Source of the DNA: a virus
Strand: one strand, 5' to 3'
Length of the DNA: 45,031 nt
IMG/VR virus record: IMGVR_UViG_3300045257_000212
Span: 1 to 45,031 of that record
The position numbers were made by a program, and so were the translations under genes. This document shows positions 26,645 to 41,291 of the stretch, piece by piece. Within the stretch, counting starts at the first letter, position 1. Every line of letters begins with the position of its first letter. The notes beneath the pieces were generated by a model, which was not told the DNA's origin, made no database searches, and worked only from the letters and a program-made list of their open reading frames with translations.

Positions 26645-26952
26645 TGGAGGTCAAGGAGTCCCGGGAGATGATTGGAGTCTCGCAGCGGGAGTTGGCGGAT
26701 AGGACGGGGATCAGCCAGGCGACGCTTTCGAGGATTGAGTCGGGGGTGCGTGAAGCTACGGAAGGGGAGTTGTCGTTGATCGCGATTGCGCTTGACGTTG
26801 AGAAGGTCGAGGCGAAGCCGCGTCGGGAGCAGTATCTGTCGGCTCCGAAAGATCCGAAGGAGCGCAGGGAGTGGTTTGCGTGGCGGAATCGGCGGATACA
26901 GGAGATTGGGCCGAAACCTGTTGATGGTGTGACGTTTGCGAAGAAAGCCTAG
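26644..26952 (+). CDS. XRE-family transcriptional regulator
   Basis: This 102-residue protein is a Cro/C1-type HTH at residues about 3-57 (SREMIGVSQRELADRTGISQ, then ATLSRIESG). The C-terminal segment includes RREWFAWRNRRIQ and ends KPVDGVTFAKKA. AGGAGG lies seven bases before the ATG, within the GATTCA array that it probably binds. It heads the rightward terminase and structural operon, so it may control late transcription. No partner repressor or integrase is seen. Confidence 0.8.
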   Translation: MEVKESREMIGVSQRELADRTGISQATLSRIESGVREATEGELSLIAIALDVEKVEAKPRREQYLSAPKDPKERREWFAWRNRRIQEIGPKPVDGVTFAKKA

Positions 26953-26960
26953 GAGGTCTC

Positions 26961-27035
26961 ATGAGCCTGATTGCTGTTCTTGTGATCCTTGCGATCATCG
27001 TTGCGGTGATCTGGATCGTTCGTGCCCTTCGTTAG
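26961..27035 (+). CDS. 24-residue membrane microprotein
   Basis: The ATG at 26961 has AGGAGG five bases upstream. The product (MSLIAVLVILAIIVAVIW and a short basic end) is a single transmembrane helix with a positive C-terminus. It resembles tiny membrane peptides found in many bacterial genomes. Function unknown. Confidence 0.55.
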   Translation: MSLIAVLVILAIIVAVIWIVRALR

Positions 27036-27393
27036 CAGCTCGCAGCAGCGGTTCATGTGGGCGAATCATCCGCAGATCGCGGCTAGGTGGCAGGCGGTCA
27101 CGAAGGGGAAGCTGCCTAAGCATGTGGGGGGGTCTTCGGAATCGAATGAGAGCAACAAGCCCGGAGTCCCGCGTCTACCTCGGAGTCCTGGGACCAAGAG
27201 GGATTTCAAGCATCTGCACCCGGGGCCAAGGGCTCGTCTGAAGCTTTCGAAGTCCGCTTCGGAGACGGATGCGATGGCAGAAAACCCTCCGGAAGCTCAT
27301 TCTAGGGGGGAACGGGGCAAGATGTCCTTGAGGTATCACGATGAAAGCCGGCTTCAGGGCCGGGATGTTACGGCCGCTGAAAGGAGCAGGTGA
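27022..27393 (+). CDS. Hypothetical protein with QQRFMWANHP motif
   Basis: This gene encodes 123 residues from GTG 27022, overlapping the upstream gene by 14 bases. The N-terminal FVSSSQQRFMWANHPQIAAR W motif is recurrent in small phage proteins near packaging genes; the rest is basic and low complexity. A role in head assembly or DNA handling is possible but not shown. Confidence 0.6.
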   Translation: MPFVSSSQQRFMWANHPQIAARWQAVTKGKLPKHVGGSSESNESNKPGVPRLPRSPGTKRDFKHLHPGPRARLKLSKSASETDAMAENPPEAHSRGERGKMSLRYHDESRLQGRDVTAAERSR

Positions 27394-27762
27394 ATGGCGA
27401 TTAAACCGTATACGGTGTTTTATAACGTCCAGAACTATGGGACGCAGGCTGAATTCAAGTGGGCGGAAAAAGAACTGGTGACGGGGAAAGGCCTTGAAAA
27501 AAACAATGGTCTGAAAGCGGTGCCGGGGGAAGCGAAGCCCCTGATCACGAGCGAGCCTCAGAGCTGTACGTTCGTGACGATCGAAGCGGAAACGGAGCTG
27601 GAAGCGGCTGAGGCCGTGACGACGTTCCTGACGCGGGGGATCACGAACCCTTCGAAAGCTGCTCCTGCGGTTGTGCAGCAGGGGACTGGGGGAGGGTTGA
27701 CGAACAACAAGGTGCTTGCGTGTGTGAGCACGGCTCTCAAAGAAGAACTGGCCGTTCCCTAA
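27394..27762 (+). CDS. Small beta-strand family protein, copy A
   Basis: This 122-residue protein begins MAIKPYTVFYNVQNYGTQAE. It is one of at least four related small proteins (27394, 27777, 28097, 31307) sharing an N-terminal Y-x-V-x-F strand and an EA-(A/E)-EAV-x-x-(V/F) helix. They lie around the terminase gene and may be head or tail decoration or assembly factors. Codons are mostly GAA/AAA. This member has a normal ATG start. Confidence 0.6.
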   Translation: MAIKPYTVFYNVQNYGTQAEFKWAEKELVTGKGLEKNNGLKAVPGEAKPLITSEPQSCTFVTIEAETELEAAEAVTTFLTRGITNPSKAAPAVVQQGTGGGLTNNKVLACVSTALKEELAVP

Positions 27763-27776
27763 GGAGGCTGATTACC

Positions 27777-28097
27777 ATCGCTATAGAAGCGTATCTAGTG
27801 GCGTTCGACATCCAGCAGGCAGCATCTGGGTATAACGTCCCGTTCCAGGAAAAACTGGGGGCCAAAGAAGAAGCTACGATCGCGGGCGCGGCTGAATTCG
27901 AAGGGACGGGGTTGACGACGGAAGCGGGGCTTCTGGCCCAGGTGGGGAGCAATGTGGCGACGGCGTACCTGGTTGAAGTCAAGGCGTCAAGCGCTGCGGA
28001 AGCTGTCGAAGTCGTGAGGCTGAAGTATGGGACGACTGCTGGGGGGTCTAGGGCGGTTGTGAAACCGAACAAAACGAACTTCCGGGTTGTTGTCTGA
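27777..28097 (+). CDS. Small beta-strand family protein, copy B, ATC start
   Basis: This gene encodes about 106 residues. AAGGAGG (27761-27767) lies nine bases before ATC 27777, and no ATG, GTG or TTG is well placed. The frame reads (ATC)-A-I-E-A-Y-L-V-A-F, aligning residue for residue with M-A-I-K-P-Y-T-V-F of the 27394 gene. ATC is therefore the probable start codon. The domain contains AEFEGTGL and SSAAEAVEVVRLKYG. Function as for copy A, unknown. Confidence 0.55.
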   Translation: MAIEAYLVAFDIQQAASGYNVPFQEKLGAKEEATIAGAAEFEGTGLTTEAGLLAQVGSNVATAYLVEVKASSAAEAVEVVRLKYGTTAGGSRAVVKPNKTNFRVVV

Positions 28098-28378
28098 TGA
28101 CAGACTTCTGGATCGTTTTCAACCGCAGGGAACAGTTTGGGAAACAGCCCGCGAACCAGTCGTTGGGCGAAGGTATCACGGTCGCCAAAGCGAAGGTGAC
28201 TGGCACGGAACTTTCGCCCGCCTTCACGGGGCAGCCGGAAGACGCCGTTGTGATGAAGGTCGAAGGTGCGAACGCGATCAAAGATGCTGTGAGGGCGGTG
28301 GTGCGTTCCTATCCGGGGCTTGACTCCGGGGCGGTTCTGGCCGTGCTGGAAGGGAACATGAAAGAAATCTCCCCGTAA
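28097..28378 (+). CDS. Small beta-strand family protein, copy C
   Basis: This 93-residue protein has an ATG coupled to the upstream stop (TGATG). It begins MTDFWIVFNRREQFGKQPAN with the family Y/W-x-V-F start and the later NAIKDAVRAVVRSYPG helix. It directly precedes the terminase gene, which its stop overlaps (TAATG). Unknown function; its location suggests a head-assembly role. Confidence 0.6.
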   Translation: MTDFWIVFNRREQFGKQPANQSLGEGITVAKAKVTGTELSPAFTGQPEDAVVMKVEGANAIKDAVRAVVRSYPGLDSGAVLAVLEGNMKEISP

Positions 28379-29904
28379 TGCTCCGTATCGACCGGGAGAA
28401 GATCGGCAGCCTCCCGGCCGCCCAGCAGCAGGACGCCGCGCGGCTCCTGGAGGTTTTGGAGGCGAAATACGCGGAGAACCCGCTCCTCGGGTATGAGCCT
28501 CATCCGAAGCAGAAGATCTTCCATTCCTCAGTGCTGCCGTTGAAGGCGTTCCTCGGCGGGAACAGGTCGGGAAAGACGACTGCTGGGATCTTGGATGACC
28601 TGATCCAGTGCGTGGACGAGGACTGCCTCCCCGAACACTTACGTTCCTACAAGAAGTTCGACCCTCCGACCCATGTGCGGATTGTTGCCCCGGATTTCAC
28701 GTCCACGATGGAGGGCGTGATCTTCCAGAAGCTCCGCGAGTGGGCGCCTAAGAGCCAGCTACGGGGCGGCAGGTTCGACAAGGCCTACGACAAGAGCCTG
28801 CGGAAGCTGTCCTTCCAGAACGGGTCCACGATTGATTTCCTGACGTTCGAGCAGGACCTGGACAAGTTCGGAGGCGCAGCCAAGCATAGGATTCATTACG
28901 ACGAGGAGCCCCCGTCGAACATACGCAAAGAGGGTCTGATGCGCCTCATCGACTATGGCGGGGATGAGCTGTTCACGATGACGCCCCTTCATGGGATGAG
29001 CTGGATGTTCGATGAGATCTGGGAGCCCTGGACGAAGCGCAAGCTTGAGGACGGGATTGTTGTCCTGGTGGACATGGACGACAATCCGTATCTGGATGAG
29101 GTTACGAAGATCCGTGTTCTGAAGGGGTTGTCCAAGGAGGAGCGGGACGCAAGGAAGTCCGGGAGGTTCGTCCATTTCGCGGGGATGATCTACGACGATT
29201 TCTCGAGGAACATGCACGTCATCCCGGAGATCCGCGAGGTCCCGCCCGGATCGAGAATCTACGTTGGGATCGACCCCGGCATGCGCCATATGGCTGCTGT
29301 TGTCTGGACGTATCTGACGACGGAGGACACGCTTGTGGTGTTTGATGAGCTTGCGCTTGAGAAATACAACGTCAAGCAGACGTGCGACGCGATCAAGCTC
29401 ATCAATGCGAAGTGGGGCCAGAAAGCCCCGAACGGGTCGATTATCAGCCTCCAGCCCGACCAGTACGTGATCGACCCCTCAGCGCGGAATATCGTCCACC
29501 AGACGGGGCGTAGCGATCAGATGGAGTACACGGACCAGGGGATCTTTACGATCTTGGGGCAGAACTCGGTGACGGCTGGGATCAGCGCGGTAAAGGTGCG
29601 CCTCGAAGCCCACAGGCTGCTCGTGACGGCTAACTGCCAGTCTCTGATAGATGAGTTCCGCAAGTACCGTTGGGCGACCCCTACAAGGACTGAGGACGAT
29701 GCGAAGGAGAAGCCGGTGAAGACCGATGACCATCTTCTCGATGCTCTCCGTTACGTCGTCGCCTCAAGGCCTTATACGAGCCCGGAGGAGCAGGGCTGGG
29801 TGCCGCAGAACGAATTCGACCTGAGGATGAAAGAAGAGATGACGGGCAAGTCTTATAAGCGCCGCACCATCCCAAGCACGCCGATGGGTGGCGTGTACGC
29901 CTAG
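28378..29904 (+). CDS. terL: Terminase large subunit
   Basis: This 508-residue protein is the ATPase and nuclease motor that packages DNA into proheads and cuts it. The Walker A GGNRSGKTT is at residues 60-68, the Walker B with catalytic acid at RIHYDEE (171-177), and a coupling motif at about 198-205 (LFTMTPLH). The RNase H-like nuclease begins YVGIDPG (Asp299) with a later Asp in DPSARN and DDHLLDALRY near the C-terminus. Length and motif order are standard. It starts overlapping the stop of the 28097 gene. Confidence 0.95.
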   Translation: MLRIDREKIGSLPAAQQQDAARLLEVLEAKYAENPLLGYEPHPKQKIFHSSVLPLKAFLGGNRSGKTTAGILDDLIQCVDEDCLPEHLRSYKKFDPPTHVRIVAPDFTSTMEGVIFQKLREWAPKSQLRGGRFDKAYDKSLRKLSFQNGSTIDFLTFEQDLDKFGGAAKHRIHYDEEPPSNIRKEGLMRLIDYGGDELFTMTPLHGMSWMFDEIWEPWTKRKLEDGIVVLVDMDDNPYLDEVTKIRVLKGLSKEERDARKSGRFVHFAGMIYDDFSRNMHVIPEIREVPPGSRIYVGIDPGMRHMAAVVWTYLTTEDTLVVFDELALEKYNVKQTCDAIKLINAKWGQKAPNGSIISLQPDQYVIDPSARNIVHQTGRSDQMEYTDQGIFTILGQNSVTAGISAVKVRLEAHRLLVTANCQSLIDEFRKYRWATPTRTEDDAKEKPVKTDDHLLDALRYVVASRPYTSPEEQGWVPQNEFDLRMKEEMTGKSYKRRTIPSTPMGGVYA

Positions 29905-29913
29905 GAGGAACCC

Positions 29914-30294
29914 TTGACGATTAAACTCGCGAACATGCCCGTCTATTGTGCGGGCTGCCACAACCAACAGCCTAGCCTCAAGCACGTGGACTTCGACTCC
30001 GCGCTCGATAGGGGCTATGGGAATGTGGAGGCTGTGAAGATCACGATGGACGATGCGATCTTCTGCGAGAACTGCGTCAAAGAGGGCGCCCACCTGCTAG
30101 GCATGATCGAGCAGGACGCCTGGACCCGGGAGAAAGCGGACCTCGAGCGGAAACTGAGTATCCGTACGAAGGAACGTGACCAGTCGCGACGTTATGCGGA
30201 CACGATCGAGTCTGCGCTCTCTCACCGCCCTGAACCCGTACGGATCGACCATAGGAAGAAGCCCCGTCACATAAGAGAACAGGAACCCGCCTGA
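29914..30294 (+). CDS. Zinc-finger-like protein, TTG start
   Basis: This gene encodes 126 residues from TTG 29914, five bases after AGGAGG. Two CxxC motifs (YCAGCHN near residue 10; FCENCVKE near 50) suggest a zinc finger. A charged coiled-coil and a basic tail follow. It lies between terminase and structural genes. Not assigned to a family. Confidence 0.6.
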   Translation: MTIKLANMPVYCAGCHNQQPSLKHVDFDSALDRGYGNVEAVKITMDDAIFCENCVKEGAHLLGMIEQDAWTREKADLERKLSIRTKERDQSRRYADTIESALSHRPEPVRIDHRKKPRHIREQEPA

Positions 30295-30617
30295 TGGCCG
30301 AATCCGGGACAACCATCCTTACGCCCGCGCTCGTGAAAGTCACGACGGCCGGCACAGCTGTCCAGATCCCCACCAGCGGCGGGGAATACGGGGCTAAGTC
30401 CTTGATCGTCCAGGCGCTGTCCACGAACACGGAAGCGGTCGTGATCGGGGACAAAAACGTGAAGGCGAAAGCCGGTTCGCAGGCTACCCCGGAACAGCGG
30501 GGTATTGAACTCGCGAAATCCCAGTCGATCAGCATCGACATCTGTGATGCGACCCAGGTGTGGGTTGACGCGAGGACTTCGAAAGATGGTGTCGTCTACA
30601 TGCTTCTGATGGCATGA
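30294..30617 (+). CDS. Small beta-sandwich protein (structural)
   Basis: This 107-residue protein is beta-rich: TTAGTAVQIPTSG, KSLIVQALSTNTEAVVIGDK, then an acidic or hydrophobic C-terminal strand region. The layout (coordinate- or offset-like beta protein) recurs at 35300. Similar small phage proteins often decorate heads or tails. It overlaps the next gene by four bases. Confidence 0.55.
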   Translation: MAESGTTILTPALVKVTTAGTAVQIPTSGGEYGAKSLIVQALSTNTEAVVIGDKNVKAKAGSQATPEQRGIELAKSQSISIDICDATQVWVDARTSKDGVVYMLLMA

Positions 30618-31090
30618 CTCATATCGAGTTGACGCCCGTAGGTGGGGTCTTGGGGGCGGAATCTGTCGAAACGGCGAACATCAAAAAAGAAGCTGTTACG
30701 ACAGCAAAGATTGCTCCTTTGGCTGTTACTGCTGGGCAGATCGGGGCGGAAGCGGTTACTGCTCCGAAGATCAGGAATCCTCCGCAGCCGGCGACCCCGG
30801 CGGGCGAAGGGGAAGTCGCGGTCGGGGAACTCGGTGGCGCTCGTAAGAACATCTCGGTTTGCACGGGGAAAGCCGGCGAAACGAAATACAAAGTCAAACA
30901 CTCGTTGACCACGACTGCTGTGATCGTGCAGGTGTTCAAGATGACGACGAAAGTCATAACGGAACCGTACCTTCAGGCTGCGGGTGCCGGGAACTACACG
31001 TATAAAGTCCTATCGGCGGCAGAAGTTGAAGTGATCTTCGGGACGGAACTGAAAGCCGGCGAAGAAGCTGCGGTCGTCACCATCGGATGA
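30614..31090 (+). CDS. Fibre-like protein with repeat stalk and beta domain
   Basis: This 158-residue protein has an N-terminal stretch of alternating A-V-T-(T/A)-x-K-I-(A/G) units (about 20-55), like the repeats of the fibre at 35575. A C-terminal beta domain (about 88-158) follows with YKVKHSLTTTAVIVQVF and an AGEEAAVVTIG end, a common phage fibre/baseplate beta domain that is also seen in the protein at 31585. It is probably a small trimeric appendage protein. Confidence 0.6.
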   Translation: MTHIELTPVGGVLGAESVETANIKKEAVTTAKIAPLAVTAGQIGAEAVTAPKIRNPPQPATPAGEGEVAVGELGGARKNISVCTGKAGETKYKVKHSLTTTAVIVQVFKMTTKVITEPYLQAAGAGNYTYKVLSAAEVEVIFGTELKAGEEAAVVTIG

Positions 31091-31314
31091 GGAACAAGCT
31101 CGCCGAAAAACTGTTGGAGGATTTCAAGCTCGAGCGCGAAGTATGGGCCGAGGAACGCGCAAAGCTTCTTGACCGCATCCAGTTTCCCGAAACGAGACAG
31201 GTTGCTCCTTCAGAGCCTGTTTTTCATGAGCCTCCGAAAGACGAGGCCGAGTTGGCACACATAGGACAGGTTGTCCCCGATTTCGTCCAAGTAGGAGGCG
31301 ATTCAAATAGCTAA
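31087..31314 (+). CDS. Hypothetical helical protein
   Basis: This gene encodes 75 residues from ATG 31087 overlapping the upstream stop. An acidic coiled-coil N-terminus (EKLLEDFKLEREVWAEERAK) is followed by a Pro-rich C-terminus. Its 3' end contains the ribosome site for the next gene (AGGAGG). Not assigned. Confidence 0.55.
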   Translation: MRNKLAEKLLEDFKLEREVWAEERAKLLDRIQFPETRQVAPSEPVFHEPPKDEAELAHIGQVVPDFVQVGGDSNS

Positions 31315-31585
31315 CGAAAATTACCTGGTGTTCTGGGGTACCCAGCCCGCCGGAGACGCAACTGCCGGTTACAAGTGGTCCAATGAAGCCCCGACGAATG
31401 TTGCGGAAAACACGGGGAACCCTGTGGAAATCTGCAAAGTCGTCCAGGTTCACGCGAAAGCCGGTGGCACCCTTACCGCCCAGGAAGCCGCGAACTCCGT
31501 GCGGAAAGCCTACGGTGATTCGATGGTGACGGGGGCGATGAAAGTGGTTCTTACAACAAATGTCGAAGAAAAGACGGCGATCTGA
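31307..31585 (+). CDS. Small beta-strand family protein, copy D, ATA start
   Basis: This gene encodes 92 residues. AGGAGG (31293-31298) lies eight bases before ATA 31307; GTG 31328 is 29 bases away and an in-frame TAG sits upstream at 31291. The frame (ATA)-A-N-E-N-Y-L-V-F-W aligns with M-A-I-K-P-Y-T-V-F (27394) and the ATC-started copy. ATA is thus the probable start codon, although ATT 31301 cannot be excluded. The C-terminus contains EAANSVRKAYGDS. Confidence 0.55.
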   Translation: MANENYLVFWGTQPAGDATAGYKWSNEAPTNVAENTGNPVEICKVVQVHAKAGGTLTAQEAANSVRKAYGDSMVTGAMKVVLTTNVEEKTAI

Positions 31586-31923
31586 TGCCCAACCTACCTG
31601 AAGAAATAGCAGATCTAATTACCTCTAGTGTGACGAAAGCCGGGACGGAACCCGCAGAACCCGCAGAAGGCGAAGTCACGAAGGGTGAAGTTGGTGTCGG
31701 AAGGCGGCAGACGTTCAAATATATGTCCAATTCGGAAGAAGCATTGGTAGTCAAACTGAAACACGACCTTGGAACCCAGTTCGTGCAGGCAGCACTGTAT
31801 CTGGCGGCTAGTTCCGTGATCCTCCCCGTACTGCACCCGGAATCACCAACTGAAGTAAGGATTGATATTAACGAAGGGGAACTAAAAAAAGGAAAAATCG
31901 CCACGATTGTTTTGTCCGCCTAG
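31585..31923 (+). CDS. Beta-domain structural protein
   Basis: This 112-residue protein matches the C-terminal domain of the 30614 protein: VKLKHDLGTQFVQAALYLA and a final KKGKIATIVLSA strand. The N-terminus is a short acidic linker rather than a repeat stalk. It is likely a fibre-type or baseplate beta module. It ends one base before the truncated gene at 31924. Confidence 0.6.
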   Translation: MPNLPEEIADLITSSVTKAGTEPAEPAEGEVTKGEVGVGRRQTFKYMSNSEEALVVKLKHDLGTQFVQAALYLAASSVILPVLHPESPTEVRIDINEGELKKGKIATIVLSA

Positions 31924-32019
31924 ATGCCGTTCGTCAAGTACATCGGCCCCTACGAAGCCGTAACCGAGCGAGATCGTTTGCGGTTGCAGCTGGGATGGGC
32001 AACTCGCGTATTGGCATAG
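31924..32019 (+). pseudogene. 5' remnant of a structural gene cut by an HNH insertion
   Basis: An ATG directly after the preceding TAG opens MPFVKYIGPYEAV, a typical start for small phage head/tail proteins. After about 15 residues the frame enters the reverse complement of the HNH gene and ends at TAG 32017-32019. The rest of the gene is missing. This indicates loss of the gene when the HNH element arrived, rather than a functional 31-residue protein. Confidence 0.5.
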
Positions 32020-32459
32020 GAATGCTCGCCCCCGTGGTGTAGCTGGACGATGTGATCTACGTCGAAGGAGCCGACGATGGGGTCGCCGCAAATCTGGCAT
32101 TTGTAGCCAGCCCGCCGTAGCAGTAGACGGCGATCAACGTTCTCAACGTGCTGGTCTAGTAGCTTCGCCCTACGTCGCTCGTTTCTGTCGATGTACCGAT
32201 CGGGGTTACGCGCGTAGCGTTCCGCGCTTTTGGTTAGCAGCTCGTCTTTGTTCTTCTCGTGGTGTTTTGCCTGATAGGTGCTATTGGCTGCACGACAGAT
32301 CTTGCAGCGGCATTTGTAGTTTGTGTAGCCCGACAGTCCGTGCTTGAGTTTCTTTGGATCTTTTGGGCGCTTCTTGTACTCGCGCTGATATTCGCGAGTG
32401 CCCGTCTTGCAAACATCGCATCGGCAGCCACGAACGTATCCTCCGTATCCATGAACCAT
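31950..32459 (-). CDS. Free-standing HNH endonuclease, mobile-looking
   Basis: This 169-residue protein carries the HNH core near its C-terminus: KCQICGDPIVGSFDVDHIVQ, then a conserved Asn and HPSCNRKR. The N-terminal half carries Cys/basic repeats (CRCDVCKTGTREYQRE; CRCKICRAANSTYQ) that probably bind DNA. It is antisense to the surrounding structural operon. An extended -10 (TGTTATACT) lies seven bases before its ATG, so it should be transcribed independently as a leaderless RNA. It looks like a homing-type insertion. Confidence 0.8.
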   Translation of the reverse strand: MVHGYGGYVRGCRCDVCKTGTREYQREYKKRPKDPKKLKHGLSGYTNYKCRCKICRAANSTYQAKHHEKNKDELLTKSAERYARNPDRYIDRNERRRAKLLDQHVENVDRRLLLRRAGYKCQICGDPIVGSFDVDHIVQLHHGGEHSYANTRVAHPSCNRKRSRSVTAS

Positions 32460-32495
32460 CTAAAGTAGTATAACAAAGGAGGTGATGCACACGAA

Positions 32496-34491
32496 ATGGC
32501 CACTATTCCCGTACCAGCCTCGAATCAACTGGATTACAAAGATGTGACGGTCCAAGATCTCGACAAGCTGTTGAGCATGGCGAGGGGTGCCCGCAGTCGA
32601 TTTGAACCGACATGGCACCTCAATTACGCATACTTCTACGGCGAACAGTGGCTGTTCTGACTTCTGGAACCGAGGCCGTCTAGACCGTCCCCGCCTCGAC
32701 CCTCACCGCGTCACCCTTACCGACAACCGGATCATCGGGATCGTCCGCACGGAGCTGGCGAAGATGACCAAGCAGAAGCCGGCGTTTCAGATCGTCCCGA
32801 CCTCCAAGGACGAGGCTGACGTTCAGGCGGCGCTGATGGGCGAGAAGATCCTCGACTACCTATGGCGCCAGCAGCATCTAAGGAACAAGCTCGTAGACGT
32901 GCTCCTATGGTCCCGTATCACGGGCACAGGCCTGTGGAAGATCGTCTGGGACAATGCGAAGGGCAAGAAGGTCCAGGTTCTCGCAGACCAGGAAGGCAAG
33001 CCTGTCCTGCATGCGGAAACGGGCGCTCCGATGAAACCGGAGCAGCTGGAAGAAATCCCCGAGGGCGTCCAAGCAAAGACGATCGCTACGGGAGATGTTC
33101 TGGTTGAAACGGTCGCTCCGTTCGAATTCCTCGCGGACCCGATCGCCACAAGGCTTGAAGATGCGGAGTGGTGCATCCAGGAGAACGTGAAGTCCCAGGA
33201 ATACGTCAAACAGCACTACGGGGTCATCGTCTCGACAGATACGGACATCGCCCCCGGTCCTACGGAAGCGAGGATGTTCCCGTCCTACCAGATGGGCGGC
33301 ACCAGCAACTACAAGGGCGTGAAGCTGCACGAGTACTGGTGCAAGCCGAACGAAACCCACCCTGAAGGCCGTAGGGCGGTCTGGTGCAAGGGGAAAATCC
33401 TCTTCGAAGGGCCGAACCCTTATGGGACGCTTCCCTACGTGATGTTCACGGGGGTTCCTATTCCCGGCCGGTTCTGGCCGACCAGCACGGTTGAGCAGCT
33501 CAGGAATCCGCAGACGGAGTTGAACAAGATCCGCTCCCAGATCCTCGAGAGTGCGCAGCGGACGGGGAACCCCGCGTTCATGTCGTCCCGCCAAGCGAAC
33601 ATCTCTTACTCGGGTGTTCCGGGGGAGCGGATCGACTACGACGATACGACCCAGAACGCGATCCCTTCCTACCTCCAGGCGCCTCCGATGCCCGCCTACG
33701 TGATCCAGCAGCAGGAACGCATCGAACAGTCCATGCAGGACATCTCAGGGCAGCACGAGGTCTCAAACGCTCAGGTGCCCGCAGGCGTCAAGGCAGCCAG
33801 CGCGATCAACCTGCTCCAGGAAGCAGACGACACCCGCCTCGGCCCGAGCATCTATGACATGGAGGAAAACCTCGGCGTAGCCGGCTCAATGCTTTTGAAG
33901 CTCGTGGCGAAGTACTACACGGACGAACGGACCATCATGATCGCCGGGAAGGACCACCAGCTCGACAGCCTGATCTTCAAGGGCGCCGCCCTACGTGAGA
34001 ACACGGAGGTCGAAGTGCAGGCCGGATCCATGTTCCCGAAGAGCAAGGCCGCGAAACAGGCCGCGATCCAAGACATCCTCAACCTTGTGTTCCAGTACGA
34101 GGGCCAGCAGCCGATGCCTAAGCGGATGCTCGCCAAGGTTCTGGAAGACTACGAGGCTGGGGCTCTGGCGAAACTGTTCGGGAACATCAACGAGGATGAG
34201 TCCCAGATCAACCGGGAGAACCAGGAAATCAGCACGGGTATCCCGGTGATGATCAACGCCTACGATAACCACGAGGCGCACGTCGAAGGGCACGAGGAAT
34301 TCCAGAAGGGGCCGACGTACAAGCAGCTTGGCCCGCAGATCGGGCAGATCATGGAAAACCACGTGAATGAACACCGGCAGCAGTTGATGGCGGCGATGGC
34401 CCCGATGGTCCAACAGCCGCAAGCACCAGGTGCGTCCAATGGCGCTCCGCAATCGACACCAGCAGGAGGAGCAAATGGCCAGCGCACATGA
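32496..34491 (+). CDS. Portal protein, split by a +1 frame change
   Basis: The protein is about 664 residues if the frames are joined. It forms the portal ring through which DNA enters and leaves the head. The first 54 codons (32496-32657) carry a portal N-terminus (RSRFEPTWHLNYAYFYGEQW then LF) and stop at TGA 32658-32660. The rest continues one base further on (DFWNRGRLDRPR, then DNRIIGIVRTELAKMTK). The C-terminal part has long helices and a Gln/Pro tail. The 12-base AAAGGAGGTGAT at 32476 is a perfect anti-16S match. The break could be programmed (TTC-TGA-C), a real mutation, or an assembly error. A GTG at 32587 would give a shorter form. Confidence 0.8.
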
Positions 34492-35062
34492 GGAGGCGAT
34501 CGCTCTCATGGAGCGCGCCAAGAAAGAAATCGAACGAGGCAGGGGCCTCGGCGGCGAGATCTCTCAGTCTCCCGGCATGCAGGAGGCCCGCATGTCCGCC
34601 GAGCAGGGCCACGACGGCGGGGCCGGGAACAAGCTCTCCAATCGCCCGCAGGGCGACATGGGCAACAAGCCCGATAGGCCCGCTGACAGCGCCGAGAACA
34701 GCAAGGGCGACCAGAACCTCTCAGGGCACGGCCCGGTGCCCTCAGGGGGCAACAGACGCTCCGCTAAACCCGCGCCACACGCCGTCTCGGGCGTCCTCAG
34801 TGATATTCGCCGTCAGGCCGCGATAAAGGAGCTCGAGAAGGAGCGCTCGAGCGCAGGGAATGCGATATCCAACAGTCCCGGCCCCGCTCCTGAGGGCGAG
34901 GGCAAAGTCGGGGACGTGCGTCCTCCCGCGAAGGCCCCCCCGGACAAGAACAAGAAAGCCGAATTCGAGGGTGTCCCGCCGTTCGCGAAAGAGGGTCTGG
35001 GCGGGGACGGCTGGGGCAAAGCCGCCGCGAAGGCCCGCGAGATGTACGCCGCCAAGAAGTGA
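34475..35062 (+). CDS. Putative head-assembly or scaffold-associated protein
   Basis: This gene encodes 195 residues from ATG 34475, with AGGAGGAG in the 3' end of the portal gene. It is polar and disordered, with Gly/Pro/Asp/Lys repeats and short helices at both ends (EEAIALMERAKKEIERGRG; GWGKAAAKAREMYAAKK). Its location between portal and the later scaffold suggests an assembly chaperone or minor head protein. Not recognised. Confidence 0.55.
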   Translation: MASAHEEAIALMERAKKEIERGRGLGGEISQSPGMQEARMSAEQGHDGGAGNKLSNRPQGDMGNKPDRPADSAENSKGDQNLSGHGPVPSGGNRRSAKPAPHAVSGVLSDIRRQAAIKELEKERSSAGNAISNSPGPAPEGEGKVGDVRPPAKAPPDKNKKAEFEGVPPFAKEGLGGDGWGKAAAKAREMYAAKK

Positions 35063-35578: not shown

Positions 35579-37911
35579 GCGTCGTAGAGCGTACCCGTAT
35601 GAGCACGGGGTCTGGGGAAGCCGGTCCCCCCGGTCCTCAGGGCGAAAAGGGGGAATTCAACTTTCGTGGGGCTTGGAAAGCCGCGACAGCCTATCTGAAA
35701 GGCGATGCGGTCGAATCCAAAGGTTCGACTTACGCCTGCATCAAAGCGATGAGCGCAGGCGAAGACGTGGAACCGCCGAATGCGACGTTCTGGGCGTTGG
35801 TGGCGAAAGAAGGAAAAGAAGGCCCCGCCGGTGCCACGGGAGAAAAAGGAACCACGGGCGAAAAAGGAACTACCGGAGAAAAAGGCGAAAAAGGAACTAC
35901 GGGGGAAACGGGTCCTGCGGGTGCCCCGAAAACCGCGAAAGAACCCCCGCTCGAAATCACAGGATCGGAAATCACGATCAAAGCGGAAGGCATCACCAAC
36001 GCCCTCGTCAAAGCCAAAAGCCTCGAAGGAAACCGCCTCGCGAAAGAAACGCTCGGTAACGAAGAAATTCAGACCAACGCGATCGACGCGCGTACGATCA
36101 CGGCCGGTGCGGTAACAGAAGCGAAGATCGGGGCAGAAGCGGTCTCGGAAGGCAAGATCAAAGGCGAAGCCGTAACGGCGGGGAAGATCGCCACCGATGC
36201 GGTGACGGTAGTCAAGATCAAAGAAGAATCCGTCACGGCAGCCAAGATCGCTACGGGGGCGGTTACGGAAACCAAGCTCGGTGCCGAAGCAGTAGCTGAA
36301 GCCAAGATCAAAAACGAAGCGATGACCGCTGCGAAGATCGCCACGGGAGCGGTGACCGAAACGAAGCTTGGCGCGGAATCGGTTTCGATCGCGAAGATCA
36401 AAGAAGAAGCGGTCCAAACCAACAAGATCAAAACGGAAGCCGTGACATCCTCGAAGATCGCGACCGGGGCCGTAACAGAATCGAAGCTTGGTGAAGCAGC
36501 CGTGACGAACCTGATCGTCAAAAAAGAAAGCCTCGGTGGCGACCGGCTAACGAAAGAAACGCTCAAAAGCGAACAGGTCGAACTACACGGCCTGACCGTG
36601 GACCGCCTCAAAGAAGCCGAACTGACGAACGCCTATATCAAACCGGCCGCAGCAATCGAAGAATCAAAGCTGTCCCTACCGGGCGTTGTCCATCTTGCCG
36701 GGATAGAGGAAATCACCACCGAAAAGCTCTTTGCGGAAGCTCCCCGGCTCATTGGGACCAAAGGAAGCGTAGGGTTATTCCTGAGGCTTGGGCCTTCTGA
36801 AGCTACGTCTATCGCGGGTAACGTTATCGCCATGCAGATGGCGAGTACCTTCAAATTCACGGCGGAAAATCTCGGCTTCCAGTTGTTCGTGGTCGGCGGG
36901 GAAATGTTTTATGAAGCCAAACCAGAATCAAACGGGGCATCGTTCATACTGTTCACCACCAGTACGATCCTCAAAACAGCAGCGGGTATCAACTTTAGCC
37001 CGGCCTCGCTAATGAGATTAGCCCCGAGCCTTAGGCCGCCCACGAAAACCTCTGGCTGGGGCGCGACGGGTGTGGTTTGGAAACCCGAACTACGCACCAT
37101 CGCGGAAGCCACTGGCGCGGGCTTCACCGCAATTGAAGCGGCCCCGACCTGTCAGACCGCGAAAACGGGCTGCGCATACGAATTCCATCGCGGGCTGCTG
37201 ATGAAGGATGTGAACAACACGGGTGTGTTCACGACTGCCGTCGCGGTCGATGTTGAAGATCTGAAAAACTCCGGGACGAACTACAGTCTTCGCAGCACGG
37301 GGAAAGCCGTCAAACTGCTCCACGAAGGTCCGGTCGAACTCGGGGAAACCCTGAAAGTCACGGGCGCCTCGACACTCGCTGAAGTCAAAGGCACCGCAGG
37401 CGTATTCTCGACGACACTCAAAGTCAAAGAAACCCTGACGGCGGAAGGCGCGGCTACCGTAGCAAAAACCCTCAAAGTCACGGAACTTACGACGGCTACG
37501 GGTGGCCTAACGGTAGAAGGCACACTCACCCTTCCGACCGAATCCATCACCGAAGCGGCGACCAAAAAAGAATCGATCTCCAAAGAAAAGCTCACGAAAG
37601 CCGCCCAAGAAGAATTGATGGTCGTATCAGCACCGTCGGCATTGGGAGCCTATACAAGCGCCAAAGAAGAAGAAGAGGCCAAAGCGACTTTGGTAACGCT
37701 AGTGATAACGCTCAAAGCCGAAGCAGCGGCAGGGACGGTCAAACTGGTCAACTCTGCCGTGGAACTAGTCTACAAATGGGACGGGATCGCATTAGGCGCC
37801 CAGAAAGTGCCCCTTACCTTCATGGTCAAAAAAGCGGGCAAATGGAAAGCAACACTGGAAGGCGCCGTGGAAAAAGCTGAAGTGTCGCGTGTGACGATAG
37901 GGTCCGTGTAA
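35575..37911 (+). CDS. Large tail fibre with collagen and AKI(K/A) repeats
   Basis: This 778-residue protein has a GTG start that overlaps the previous stop. A short N-terminus is followed by GPPGPQGEKGEF collagen triplets, a small carbohydrate-binding-like module (FRGAWKAATAYLKGDAV; about 30-80) and more GEKGTTGEKG triplets. About 12 units of V-T-x-x-K-I-(A/K)-x-(E/G)-A-V-(T/S) then form a long stalk (about 145-330). A mixed beta distal region follows, with a later VKETLT repeat section. It resembles trimeric phage fibres; the distal part likely recognises the host surface. Glu and Lys are nearly all GAA and AAA. Confidence 0.75.
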   Translation: MSVVERTRMSTGSGEAGPPGPQGEKGEFNFRGAWKAATAYLKGDAVESKGSTYACIKAMSAGEDVEPPNATFWALVAKEGKEGPAGATGEKGTTGEKGTTGEKGEKGTTGETGPAGAPKTAKEPPLEITGSEITIKAEGITNALVKAKSLEGNRLAKETLGNEEIQTNAIDARTITAGAVTEAKIGAEAVSEGKIKGEAVTAGKIATDAVTVVKIKEESVTAAKIATGAVTETKLGAEAVAEAKIKNEAMTAAKIATGAVTETKLGAESVSIAKIKEEAVQTNKIKTEAVTSSKIATGAVTESKLGEAAVTNLIVKKESLGGDRLTKETLKSEQVELHGLTVDRLKEAELTNAYIKPAAAIEESKLSLPGVVHLAGIEEITTEKLFAEAPRLIGTKGSVGLFLRLGPSEATSIAGNVIAMQMASTFKFTAENLGFQLFVVGGEMFYEAKPESNGASFILFTTSTILKTAAGINFSPASLMRLAPSLRPPTKTSGWGATGVVWKPELRTIAEATGAGFTAIEAAPTCQTAKTGCAYEFHRGLLMKDVNNTGVFTTAVAVDVEDLKNSGTNYSLRSTGKAVKLLHEGPVELGETLKVTGASTLAEVKGTAGVFSTTLKVKETLTAEGAATVAKTLKVTELTTATGGLTVEGTLTLPTESITEAATKKESISKEKLTKAAQEELMVVSAPSALGAYTSAKEEEEAKATLVTLVITLKAEAAAGTVKLVNSAVELVYKWDGIALGAQKVPLTFMVKKAGKWKATLEGAVEKAEVSRVTIGSV

Positions 37912-39016: not shown

Positions 39017-40285
39017 GTGGCCACTCAAACCCTGGCATCCTTCGATGCCGCACTAAAGGATCTCTATGTAGGTCCGATTGTCGAGCAGCTCAACCAGAAG
39101 ACCTACCTTCTCGACCAGATCGAGCGGGACGCAGACCACATCGACCACACCGGCCGGCGTGCAGTCATCCCCCTCCATAAGAACCGTAACCGTGGGCGGA
39201 AATCCATCGCAGACGGAGGCACCCTCCCCTCAGCAGGGGCACAGGTGTACTTGGACGCGATCGTCCCGTTGCGCTACCACACCTACGGCATCGAGCTCAC
39301 CGACCAGGTGATCGAGGCTTCCAAGACGAACGAGGGCGCTTTCGTGTCCGCGATCGAAGTGGAGTCCAAGGGTGTCGCGGTGGACATGCGCAAGGACGTG
39401 AACCGTCAGGCGTTCGGGACCGGCAACGGCGCCCTCGCCCAGAAAGTATCGGCCACGGTCGGCGTGAACAAAACTTCGAAAGAATTCGAAGTCAAAGTCC
39501 TGACCAAAAACGACATGCAGTACATCCACGTCGGTGATGTAGTGGACGTGATCAAAGAAGCAACCGGGGAACTCGGGGAAGGCGTCGAAGGCGCCGAAGT
39601 CACCGAAGTCAAAGCGGAAGCGTTCGTCGTCGCCAAAAAACTCAAAGGCGAACTCGGCGCGGAAACCTACCAGGTGTACGTGTCCGGGAACCGCAACCAG
39701 GAGATGGACGGACTCCGCAACATCACCGAAAATGAACGGGTGCTGCATTCGGTGAACTCGGCTACGGCCGGGAACGCCTTCTGGAAAGGCAACACCGTTC
39801 TCGCGGGGACTTCCCTCACCGCAACAGCAGTAGCTGGAGAGTCCCTGTTCGAGCAGCTCGCGGACAACGTGGGGGCTCAGGGTAACGGGGACGTGGAGGT
39901 CTTCCTCACCACCCGTGGGATCCGTCGCCGCCTCGCCGACTCCTACCAGTCCCAGAAGCGGTTCAACGACGCGAAAGCAGTCGATGTCCACGGCGGCTAC
40001 TCCGCCATCATGGTCAACGAGATCCCCGTCGTAGCGGACGACGACGCACCCAAGGGGTACGCCTTTGGCTTCAACAAGTCCGCGTTGAAGTGGTTCGAGC
40101 AGACCAAGCCCGGCTGGCTCGAAAGGGAGAACGGCGGGATCTTCCACCTGAAGACCGCCGGGACCGGGACGTACGCCGCTGTTTGGCAGGCCTGGTTCCG
40201 CTGGTATGCTGCATTGGGGTGCACGGCACCCAATCGCACAGGACGCATCGAAAACTGCACGGATGATGCTCCGCTGTTGAGCTAG
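39017..40285 (+). CDS. Major capsid protein
   Basis: This gene encodes 422 residues from GTG 39017 with AAAGGAG upstream. It builds the icosahedral shell, probably with the HK97 fold. Visible parts are the helical start (FDAALKDLYVGPIVEQLNQK), an R-GRKSIADGGTLPSAGAQ loop, GIELTDQVIEASKTNEGAF (spine-helix region), a beta insertion near 150-220, and the P-domain region NEIPVVADDDAPKGYAFGFN. The codons of the insertion (about 39468-39670) are only GAA/AAA. The gene ends at CTAG shared with a convergent HNH gene. Confidence 0.9.
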   Translation: MATQTLASFDAALKDLYVGPIVEQLNQKTYLLDQIERDADHIDHTGRRAVIPLHKNRNRGRKSIADGGTLPSAGAQVYLDAIVPLRYHTYGIELTDQVIEASKTNEGAFVSAIEVESKGVAVDMRKDVNRQAFGTGNGALAQKVSATVGVNKTSKEFEVKVLTKNDMQYIHVGDVVDVIKEATGELGEGVEGAEVTEVKAEAFVVAKKLKGELGAETYQVYVSGNRNQEMDGLRNITENERVLHSVNSATAGNAFWKGNTVLAGTSLTATAVAGESLFEQLADNVGAQGNGDVEVFLTTRGIRRRLADSYQSQKRFNDAKAVDVHGGYSAIMVNEIPVVADDDAPKGYAFGFNKSALKWFEQTKPGWLERENGGIFHLKTAGTGTYAAVWQAWFRWYAALGCTAPNRTGRIENCTDDAPLLS

Positions 40286-40878
40286 AAGAGGGTGGCGGGT
40301 TCTTCCCGCCACTTAGCAATTTCGCGTTGGTCTTGGGCGATCTTGGCTAGGTTGCATTCGGGGTGAGTAACCCGAACGTTTGCGTAGCTATGATCGCCCG
40401 GACCAAGCGGAATGATGTGATCTAGGTGCCAATTGCTGGGATCAACGGCTTGGGCGCAGATCCCGCAGATGCCCTTATCACGGGCGAACACGTTGGCACG
40501 GCTTATGTCTTCTACGAAGGCTGATCGCTTGCGTGCTCTACGGCGTCCGTTTTCACGGAAGCCGACTGCCTGCCCTTTAGGTGTGGCGGCCCACTTGGTT
40601 TTGTAGGCTGCATTGCGCTTGAGGATTTCATCTCGTTTATGCTGGTATCGGCGCGCTTCTCGTTCTGAGATTTGCTTTTTGTGCGCCAGGTAGTAGGCGG
40701 CAATGTAGGCTTTTCGGTGGATATCCGACTCCTTATCGGAGGCGTACTTCCGCCGGTTGTGGCCGTGAATGTAGGCGATTGGCTCGCCCTTGACTAGACC
40801 GCGCTTGTGGTTGGTTTTGGGCGATAGCGGGGTTTTCTCACCGCAACCGCATTGGCAATAGCCGTGGGGAATGCTCAT
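40282..40878 (-). CDS. Free-standing HNH endonuclease, mobile-looking
   Basis: This 198-residue protein has N-terminal Cys-rich CQCGCGEKTPLSPK and basic helices, probably DNA contacts, then a C-terminal HNH core (CGICAQAVDPSNWHLDHIIP, later HPECNLAK). It is transcribed against the capsid operon between the capsid gene and the next head gene. An extended -10 (TGGTACAAT) lies nine bases before its ATG. It is similar in setting to the HNH at 31950, and probably a homing endonuclease. Confidence 0.8.
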   Translation of the reverse strand: MSIPHGYCQCGCGEKTPLSPKTNHKRGLVKGEPIAYIHGHNRRKYASDKESDIHRKAYIAAYYLAHKKQISEREARRYQHKRDEILKRNAAYKTKWAATPKGQAVGFRENGRRRARKRSAFVEDISRANVFARDKGICGICAQAVDPSNWHLDHIIPLGPGDHSYANVRVTHPECNLAKIAQDQREIAKWREEPATLF

Positions 40879-40907
40879 GGCGCATCGATTGTACCAAAGG
40901 AGGTCCC

Positions 40908-41291
40908 ATGGCTGCAGAAAACATCGCAGCGGTCAAACCGCTCTTCAGTGAGAAGATCGGGGCGCGACTGCTTGTCGTAGGGGAAGTCGAATTCCCCGCG
41001 AAATACAAAACCGAAGGCTGCGAAATCAGCACGAAACAGCTGGAAGAACTCGGCCTGACGCTGGCCCAGGTGGACTGCGGCTGGATCGTCACGTCAGGGC
41101 TGGTCGCGAAAAACGCTGCATACCCGATCGTCCAGCTCAACATCACGAACGCGGGCGGGACGAAAAGCGAAGCTCAGGCCGTGAAGGTCCAGGCTTACGA
41201 ATCGATCACGACCGCGAATAACAAAGAGGTGGCCTCCGAATCGGAATTGCCGAAAAAATGCACCCTGACGGTGGCTCTGATCGGCAAATAG
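40908..41291 (+). CDS. Putative minor head or decoration protein
   Basis: This 127-residue protein has AAAGGAGG seven bases or fewer before the ATG. It is beta-rich, with KIGARLLVVGEVEFPAKYK, VDCGWIVTSGLVAKN and KCTLTVALIGK, as in small head or tail-completion proteins. It directly follows the capsid gene apart from the HNH insertion. The exact role is unknown. Confidence 0.6.
   Translation: MAAENIAAVKPLFSEKIGARLLVVGEVEFPAKYKTEGCEISTKQLEELGLTLAQVDCGWIVTSGLVAKNAAYPIVQLNITNAGGTKSEAQAVKVQAYESITTANNKEVASESELPKKCTLTVALIGK

Follow-up and report, generated by a model that had tools for sequence, protein, structure and literature searches.

Near-cognate start codons are known in bacteria: In Escherichia coli, infC and pcnB begin at AUU, and such a start limits the expression of a low-abundance protein. 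In Staphylococcus, starts mapped by ribosome profiling include AUA in infC, ccpN, and citZ and AUU in cvfC1, and an extended Shine–Dalgarno (SD) sequence has been described for infC, ccpN, and cvfC1 (PMC13009471). Reporters of cvfC1, ccpN, and citZ gave ∼10% of AUG output, with ccpN reaching up to 30%, and the non-canonical codon is conserved for ccpN and cvfC1 and lineage-specific for citZ, so that conservation is not required (PMC13009471). Phage T4 gene 60 combines a homing endonuclease with a translationally bypassed insert of 50 nt (PMC5009743). Here, we examine against this background a small gene on a 45-kb IMG/VR virus contig (hereafter the window, meaning the whole stretch of DNA analyzed), whose candidate start codon is AUA, as opposed to the AUU of the two E. 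coli genes.

The gene occupies positions 31307..31585 of the plus strand, among small genes that surround those for TerL (28378–29904) and a P22/SU10-type portal protein (32496–34491). The only cellular relative of the TerL that was found is in an Actinomycetota MAG (43%), a faint hint that the host may be actinobacterial. The open reading frame has 92 codons, encodes a small alpha/beta protein, and ends at TGA 31583–31585. The initial annotation had it begin at ATA, and what it read from the sequence is exact: AGGAGG (31293–31298) lies 8 nt (31299–31306) before the ATA at 31307–31309, the frame opens with I-A-N-E-N-Y-L-V-F, and no normal start is usable. An in-frame TAG (31292..31294, plus strand), which overlaps the SD, closes the frame five codons upstream of the ATA, and the first in-frame ATG, GTG, or TTG downstream is a GTG at codon 8 (31328..31330, plus strand), 29 nt past the SD and itself without an SD (anti-SD energy only −2.0 kcal/mol). 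Only 2 nt separate the SD from an in-frame ATT at 31301. The gene is tightly packed: An upstream ORF (31087..31314, plus strand; TAA 31312–31314) overlaps the ATA start by 8 nt, making translational coupling possible, and the ATG of a downstream ORF (31585..31923, plus strand) overlaps the TGA by one base. Compared with its nearest relative, on contig L002, the ORF has a dN/dS of ∼0.13, and on sequence grounds 31307–31585 is a conserved coding gene. Folding of the RNA around the ATA was unremarkable (z −0.37), and there were no Rfam matches across 26900–34600. A recoded genetic code was considered and dropped; a search of the window turned up no tRNA gene, and other genes end at TGA or TAG in the usual way. 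Nearby, 30614–31090, which has a tail-fibre match in PHROGs, resembles 31585–31923 by eye and matches stretches within 36028–36522.

The AGGAGG is the core of an extended SD, AGGAGG-C-GATTC (31293..31304, plus strand), that pairs with the 16S 3′ tail GGAUCACCUCCU with one mismatch at −17.5 kcal/mol (here and below, the ViennaRNA duplexfold energy of the 22 nt upstream with the 16S tail). The two halves of the helix, AGGAGG and GATTC, run toward the start codon, so that pairing reaches past the core as it does at the extended-SD starts of Staphylococcus and Bacillus. The AUA codon, the suitable spacing, and the lack of a competing standard start are likewise shared with infC, ccpN, and citZ of those genera. 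Among the 58 starts considered in the window, the SD of 31307 is the second strongest and that of a second near-cognate start, at 27777, the fourth (an indicative rank, the list having been hand-picked from ORFs), and the two hold the same places among the 1,215 ATA, ATC, and ATT positions on the plus strand of the window. An exhaustive scan for GGAGG ahead of a frame-opening codon of whatever kind, which was without power, found ATA and ATC no commoner than other codons, and an all-against-all comparison of starts was swamped by antisense ORFs until an SD filter was applied.

The proposal that 31307 is a second paralog of the family that includes 27777 held up well in profile–profile comparison (hhalign 97.9%, E 6e-13), with an alignment that runs from residue 1. 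With a family profile, 27394 and 28097 in the window are picked up as well, together with members in L002–L005, L007, and L010–L012, and an N-terminal A-x-E-x-Y-x-V is common to the paralogs. Near-cognate codons open two of the four paralogs of this genome, 31307 and 27777..28097 (plus strand; ATC), and ATG opens the other two, 27394..27762 (plus strand; an ordinary start) and 28097..28378 (plus strand; the ATG overlaps the preceding stop). The AlphaFold2 model of the 31307 protein (pLDDT 82, pTM 0.71) is strand-strand-helix-strand, with strand 1 formed by residues 5–14. Searches against Pfam and PHROGs and for similar folds returned nothing significant and no confident fold relative, and the protein fell into no known virion protein family. 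Queries with the 31307 protein alone among viral contigs, and by tblastn in GenBank phages, gave no convincing relatives; its orthologs were reached through TerL and portal matches. A homolog of 27394 in L005 that had seemed to be start-less has an ordinary upstream TTG with an SD and was set aside.

Start codons across the family were compared as the initial annotation had proposed. Only two close orthologs of 31307 were found, in L002 (54% identical) and L003 (48%), so the case for recurrence at this gene is carried by the paralogs. Both orthologs have ATG at the residue aligned with the ATA, as does the start of a more distant family member in L004. The 27777 gene starts with ATG in L002, L003, L004, and L005 and with ATC in L007. 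Its L002 homolog is 98% identical and lacks a 15-nt stretch, AGGAGGCTGATTACC, that carries the SD of the window gene (AGGAGG-C-TGATT; 27762..27773, plus strand); several synonymous changes also separate the two. The remaining family members mostly start with ATG. Because relatives this close have ATG, the near-cognate codon is most simply read as derived and as having arisen more than once. An ATA where homologs have ATG also fits an initiation site of the infC, ccpN, and cvfC1 type. Unlike the Staphylococcus starts, which were profiled and of which those of ccpN and cvfC1 are conserved, the start at 31307 is inferred, belongs to a set of phage paralogs, and is not conserved in its orthologs.

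SD strength follows the same division. The near-cognate family starts have energies of −17.5 (31307), −15.9 (27777), and −18.1 kcal/mol (the ATC at L007 589), and the seven members with ATG range from −7.9 to −14.4 kcal/mol (Mann–Whitney p 0.011, kinship not corrected for). We consider it likely that the gene is translated from the ATA by means of its extended SD, an ancestral ATG having been lost and the SD strengthened, and 31307 is very probably a real ATA-started gene with a known kind of initiation site that is repeated in a phage gene family. The extended helix with the 16S tail would end near the start codon at good spacing and hold the ribosome there, whereupon the initiator tRNA would accept the near-cognate ATA. 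A G-to-A change probably removed the ATG that the orthologs still have, with the stronger SD as compensation, and output would be expected to fall well below that of an ATG behind an identical SD. Initiation at the ATA and the lowered output are both inferred, and reduced output is likely from comparison with the reporters of such starts. The stronger SD may do no more than return output to the level of relatives that combine ATG with a weaker SD.

The same arrangement appears in other genes and other phages. The portal gene of L007 starts with ATC behind AAAGGAGGTGATTGCA (−23.9 kcal/mol), that of L047 with ATC behind AAAGGAGGTGATGCCCC (−25.2 kcal/mol) and with no in-frame standard start for 90 codons, and L002 has a remnant portal 5′ end with an ATC start (−27.9 kcal/mol). 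At both ATC sites of L007, an in-frame GTG lies three codons upstream, inside the SD; an annotator might call it, but as a start it is sterically unlikely. Among the 80 IMG/VR loci listed for the pattern AGGAGGYGATTNNNATNGCT, the codon was ATG in 55, ATT in 14, ATA in seven, and ATC in four, and since the pattern was built from sites of the present analysis, these counts attest to the existence of such sites and not to their frequency. In unrelated IMG/VR phages with AGGAGGYGATTNNNATAGCT, six of seven ATA sites open frames 60 codons long or longer; one of these is a TerS-like gene (L163) and another a portal gene (L193). ATA or ATC stands behind an extended SD in unrelated phages at L193 590 (portal), L163 2605 (TerS-like), and L175 2725 (tape-measure-like, recognized by eye), in positions on the strand of the site. 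At L049 10036, GGGAGGTGATCGAG precedes the ATC of a conserved gene whose relatives have ATG, and the alternative there is an in-frame GTG inside the SD.

If the ATA is indeed the start, it could serve stoichiometry, with less of the 31307 protein required than of the paralogs that start with ATG; the initial annotation had suggested a copy-ratio role, and such a role is compatible with the initiation mechanism proposed above. The even split of start codons among the four paralogs speaks for this, and starts of this kind cut output several-fold (PMC13009471). Such a copy-ratio role is plausible, but we lean against it: The SD was strengthened alongside, which pushes output up, the ATG and weaker SD of the orthologs may yield similar output, and the absence of the non-ATG start from those orthologs argues against one fixed ratio required across the group. 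The state may be kept because few copies of a minor protein are required, or it may persist by drift, made near-neutral by the strong SD.

Homing endonucleases offer another route to the arrangement, and here the evidence lies mainly in the portal gene. In the window, that gene has an extended SD (AAAGGAGGTGATG; 32475..32487, plus strand; −21.9 kcal/mol) and, after a TTC, a 7-nt insert, TGACTTC (32658..32664, plus strand), which brings an in-frame TGA and a frame change, is shared with L002, and is missing from most relatives. Inserts of 6–9 nt that carry or create a stop, at codons ∼40–57 and differing in sequence, are found in seven portals (window, L002, L003, L007, L035, L047, and L051); L047 has two, both placed by eye against relatives. 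The sequences TTC-TGAC-TTC in the window (32655–32664) and TTC-TGACC-TTC in L047 resemble miniature bypass sites. In the seven portals with inserts, anti-SD energies run from −19.0 to −26.4 kcal/mol, versus −3.8 to −13.3 kcal/mol in 28 other portals (p 2.9e-5, which is overstated: The correlation was noticed before testing, the window and L002 share their insert, and the portals are related). Between the window and L002, purifying selection is evident on both flanks of the insert, the first 34 codons beyond it being free of amino-acid changes, and for this reason the part downstream is probably translated, although L002 has no standard start there. A free-standing HNH endonuclease gene (31950..32459, minus strand; Pfam PF01844, E 7.9e-12) lies just upstream of the portal gene, and a second is at 40285–40932 (minus strand). 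HNH genes also stand beside the portal in L003 and L007, HNH-like ORFs in L002 and L047 were recognized by eye only, and none was seen beside the portal in L035 or L051. The likeness to T4 gene 60 thus concerns the neighboring portal, with its short stop-bearing insert near codon 50 and an HNH gene alongside, and differs in that the T4 insert is 50 nt and bypassing at the portal is putative; no stop-bearing insert of that kind was found in the 31307 gene.

Tentatively, one could suppose that in this phage group homing HNH genes and the scars they leave create obstacles to translation at the 5′ ends of genes (a lost ATG, or 6- to 9-nt stop-bearing portal inserts, some flanked by TTC as in miniature ribosomal bypassing), each offset by a ribosome-loading extended SD, and that the ATA of 31307 is one instance. 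This account rests mainly on the portal genes and touches 31307 through the shared extended SD only, and we judge it doubtful. Somewhat less probable still is a direct homing by-product, in which an HNH gene, landing at the start of another gene or close to it, would rebuild that start with an extended SD of its own, and the altered codon would belong to a changed target site that resists cleavage. It would account for the HNH gene 30 bp before the ATC of the 27777 homolog in L007 and another before the portal ATC of that contig, for the duplicated portal 5′ ends that flank HNH in L003 and L002, and for an HNH-like ORF, recognized by eye, that ends just before the portal ATC in L047. An endonuclease of the gene 60/mobA type is, however, adjacent at the portal and not at 31307: In the window, neither 31307 nor 27777 adjoins an HNH gene, the closest one starting 365 nt beyond the stop of 31307. 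Moreover, L010–L012 have HNH at the portal yet an ordinary start there.

Sequencing or assembly error, with a true ATG and an ordinary gene, needs a single G-to-A difference in an IMG/VR contig, and we regard it as very improbable. A sequencing error that arose independently would not be accompanied by a compensating SD, so the claim of selection rather than error is supported: The change from ATG to ATC or ATA always comes with a much stronger SD, twice in this genome, in the L007 homolog of 27777, and in the L007 and L047 portals. At 27777, error would also have to explain the 15-nt SD stretch and the synonymous changes relative to L002, and the arrangement recurs in L007 and L047, both of them separate contigs that come from other samples. 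Least credible of all is a start at GTG 31328, or re-initiation after the upstream stop, with the first seven codons untranslated, for although the GTG is in frame and the upstream ORF ending at 31314 could deliver ribosomes by coupling, that GTG is without an SD, and initiation there would cut into the predicted strand 1 and forfeit the family N-terminus.

Gene finders limited to ATG, GTG, and TTG truncate or mis-start such genes, as the mechanical ORF calls at GTG 31328 and GTG 27720 illustrate, and the SD signature, extended pairing 8–9 nt from the codon, provides a handle for finding near-cognate starts in viral genomes. The portal inserts with their extended SDs, several of them beside HNH genes, may prove more interesting than the ATA start. 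Within the small-protein family itself, near-identical relatives with ATG and a weaker SD versus ATC and a strong SD constitute a natural experiment on the trade-off between start codon and SD.
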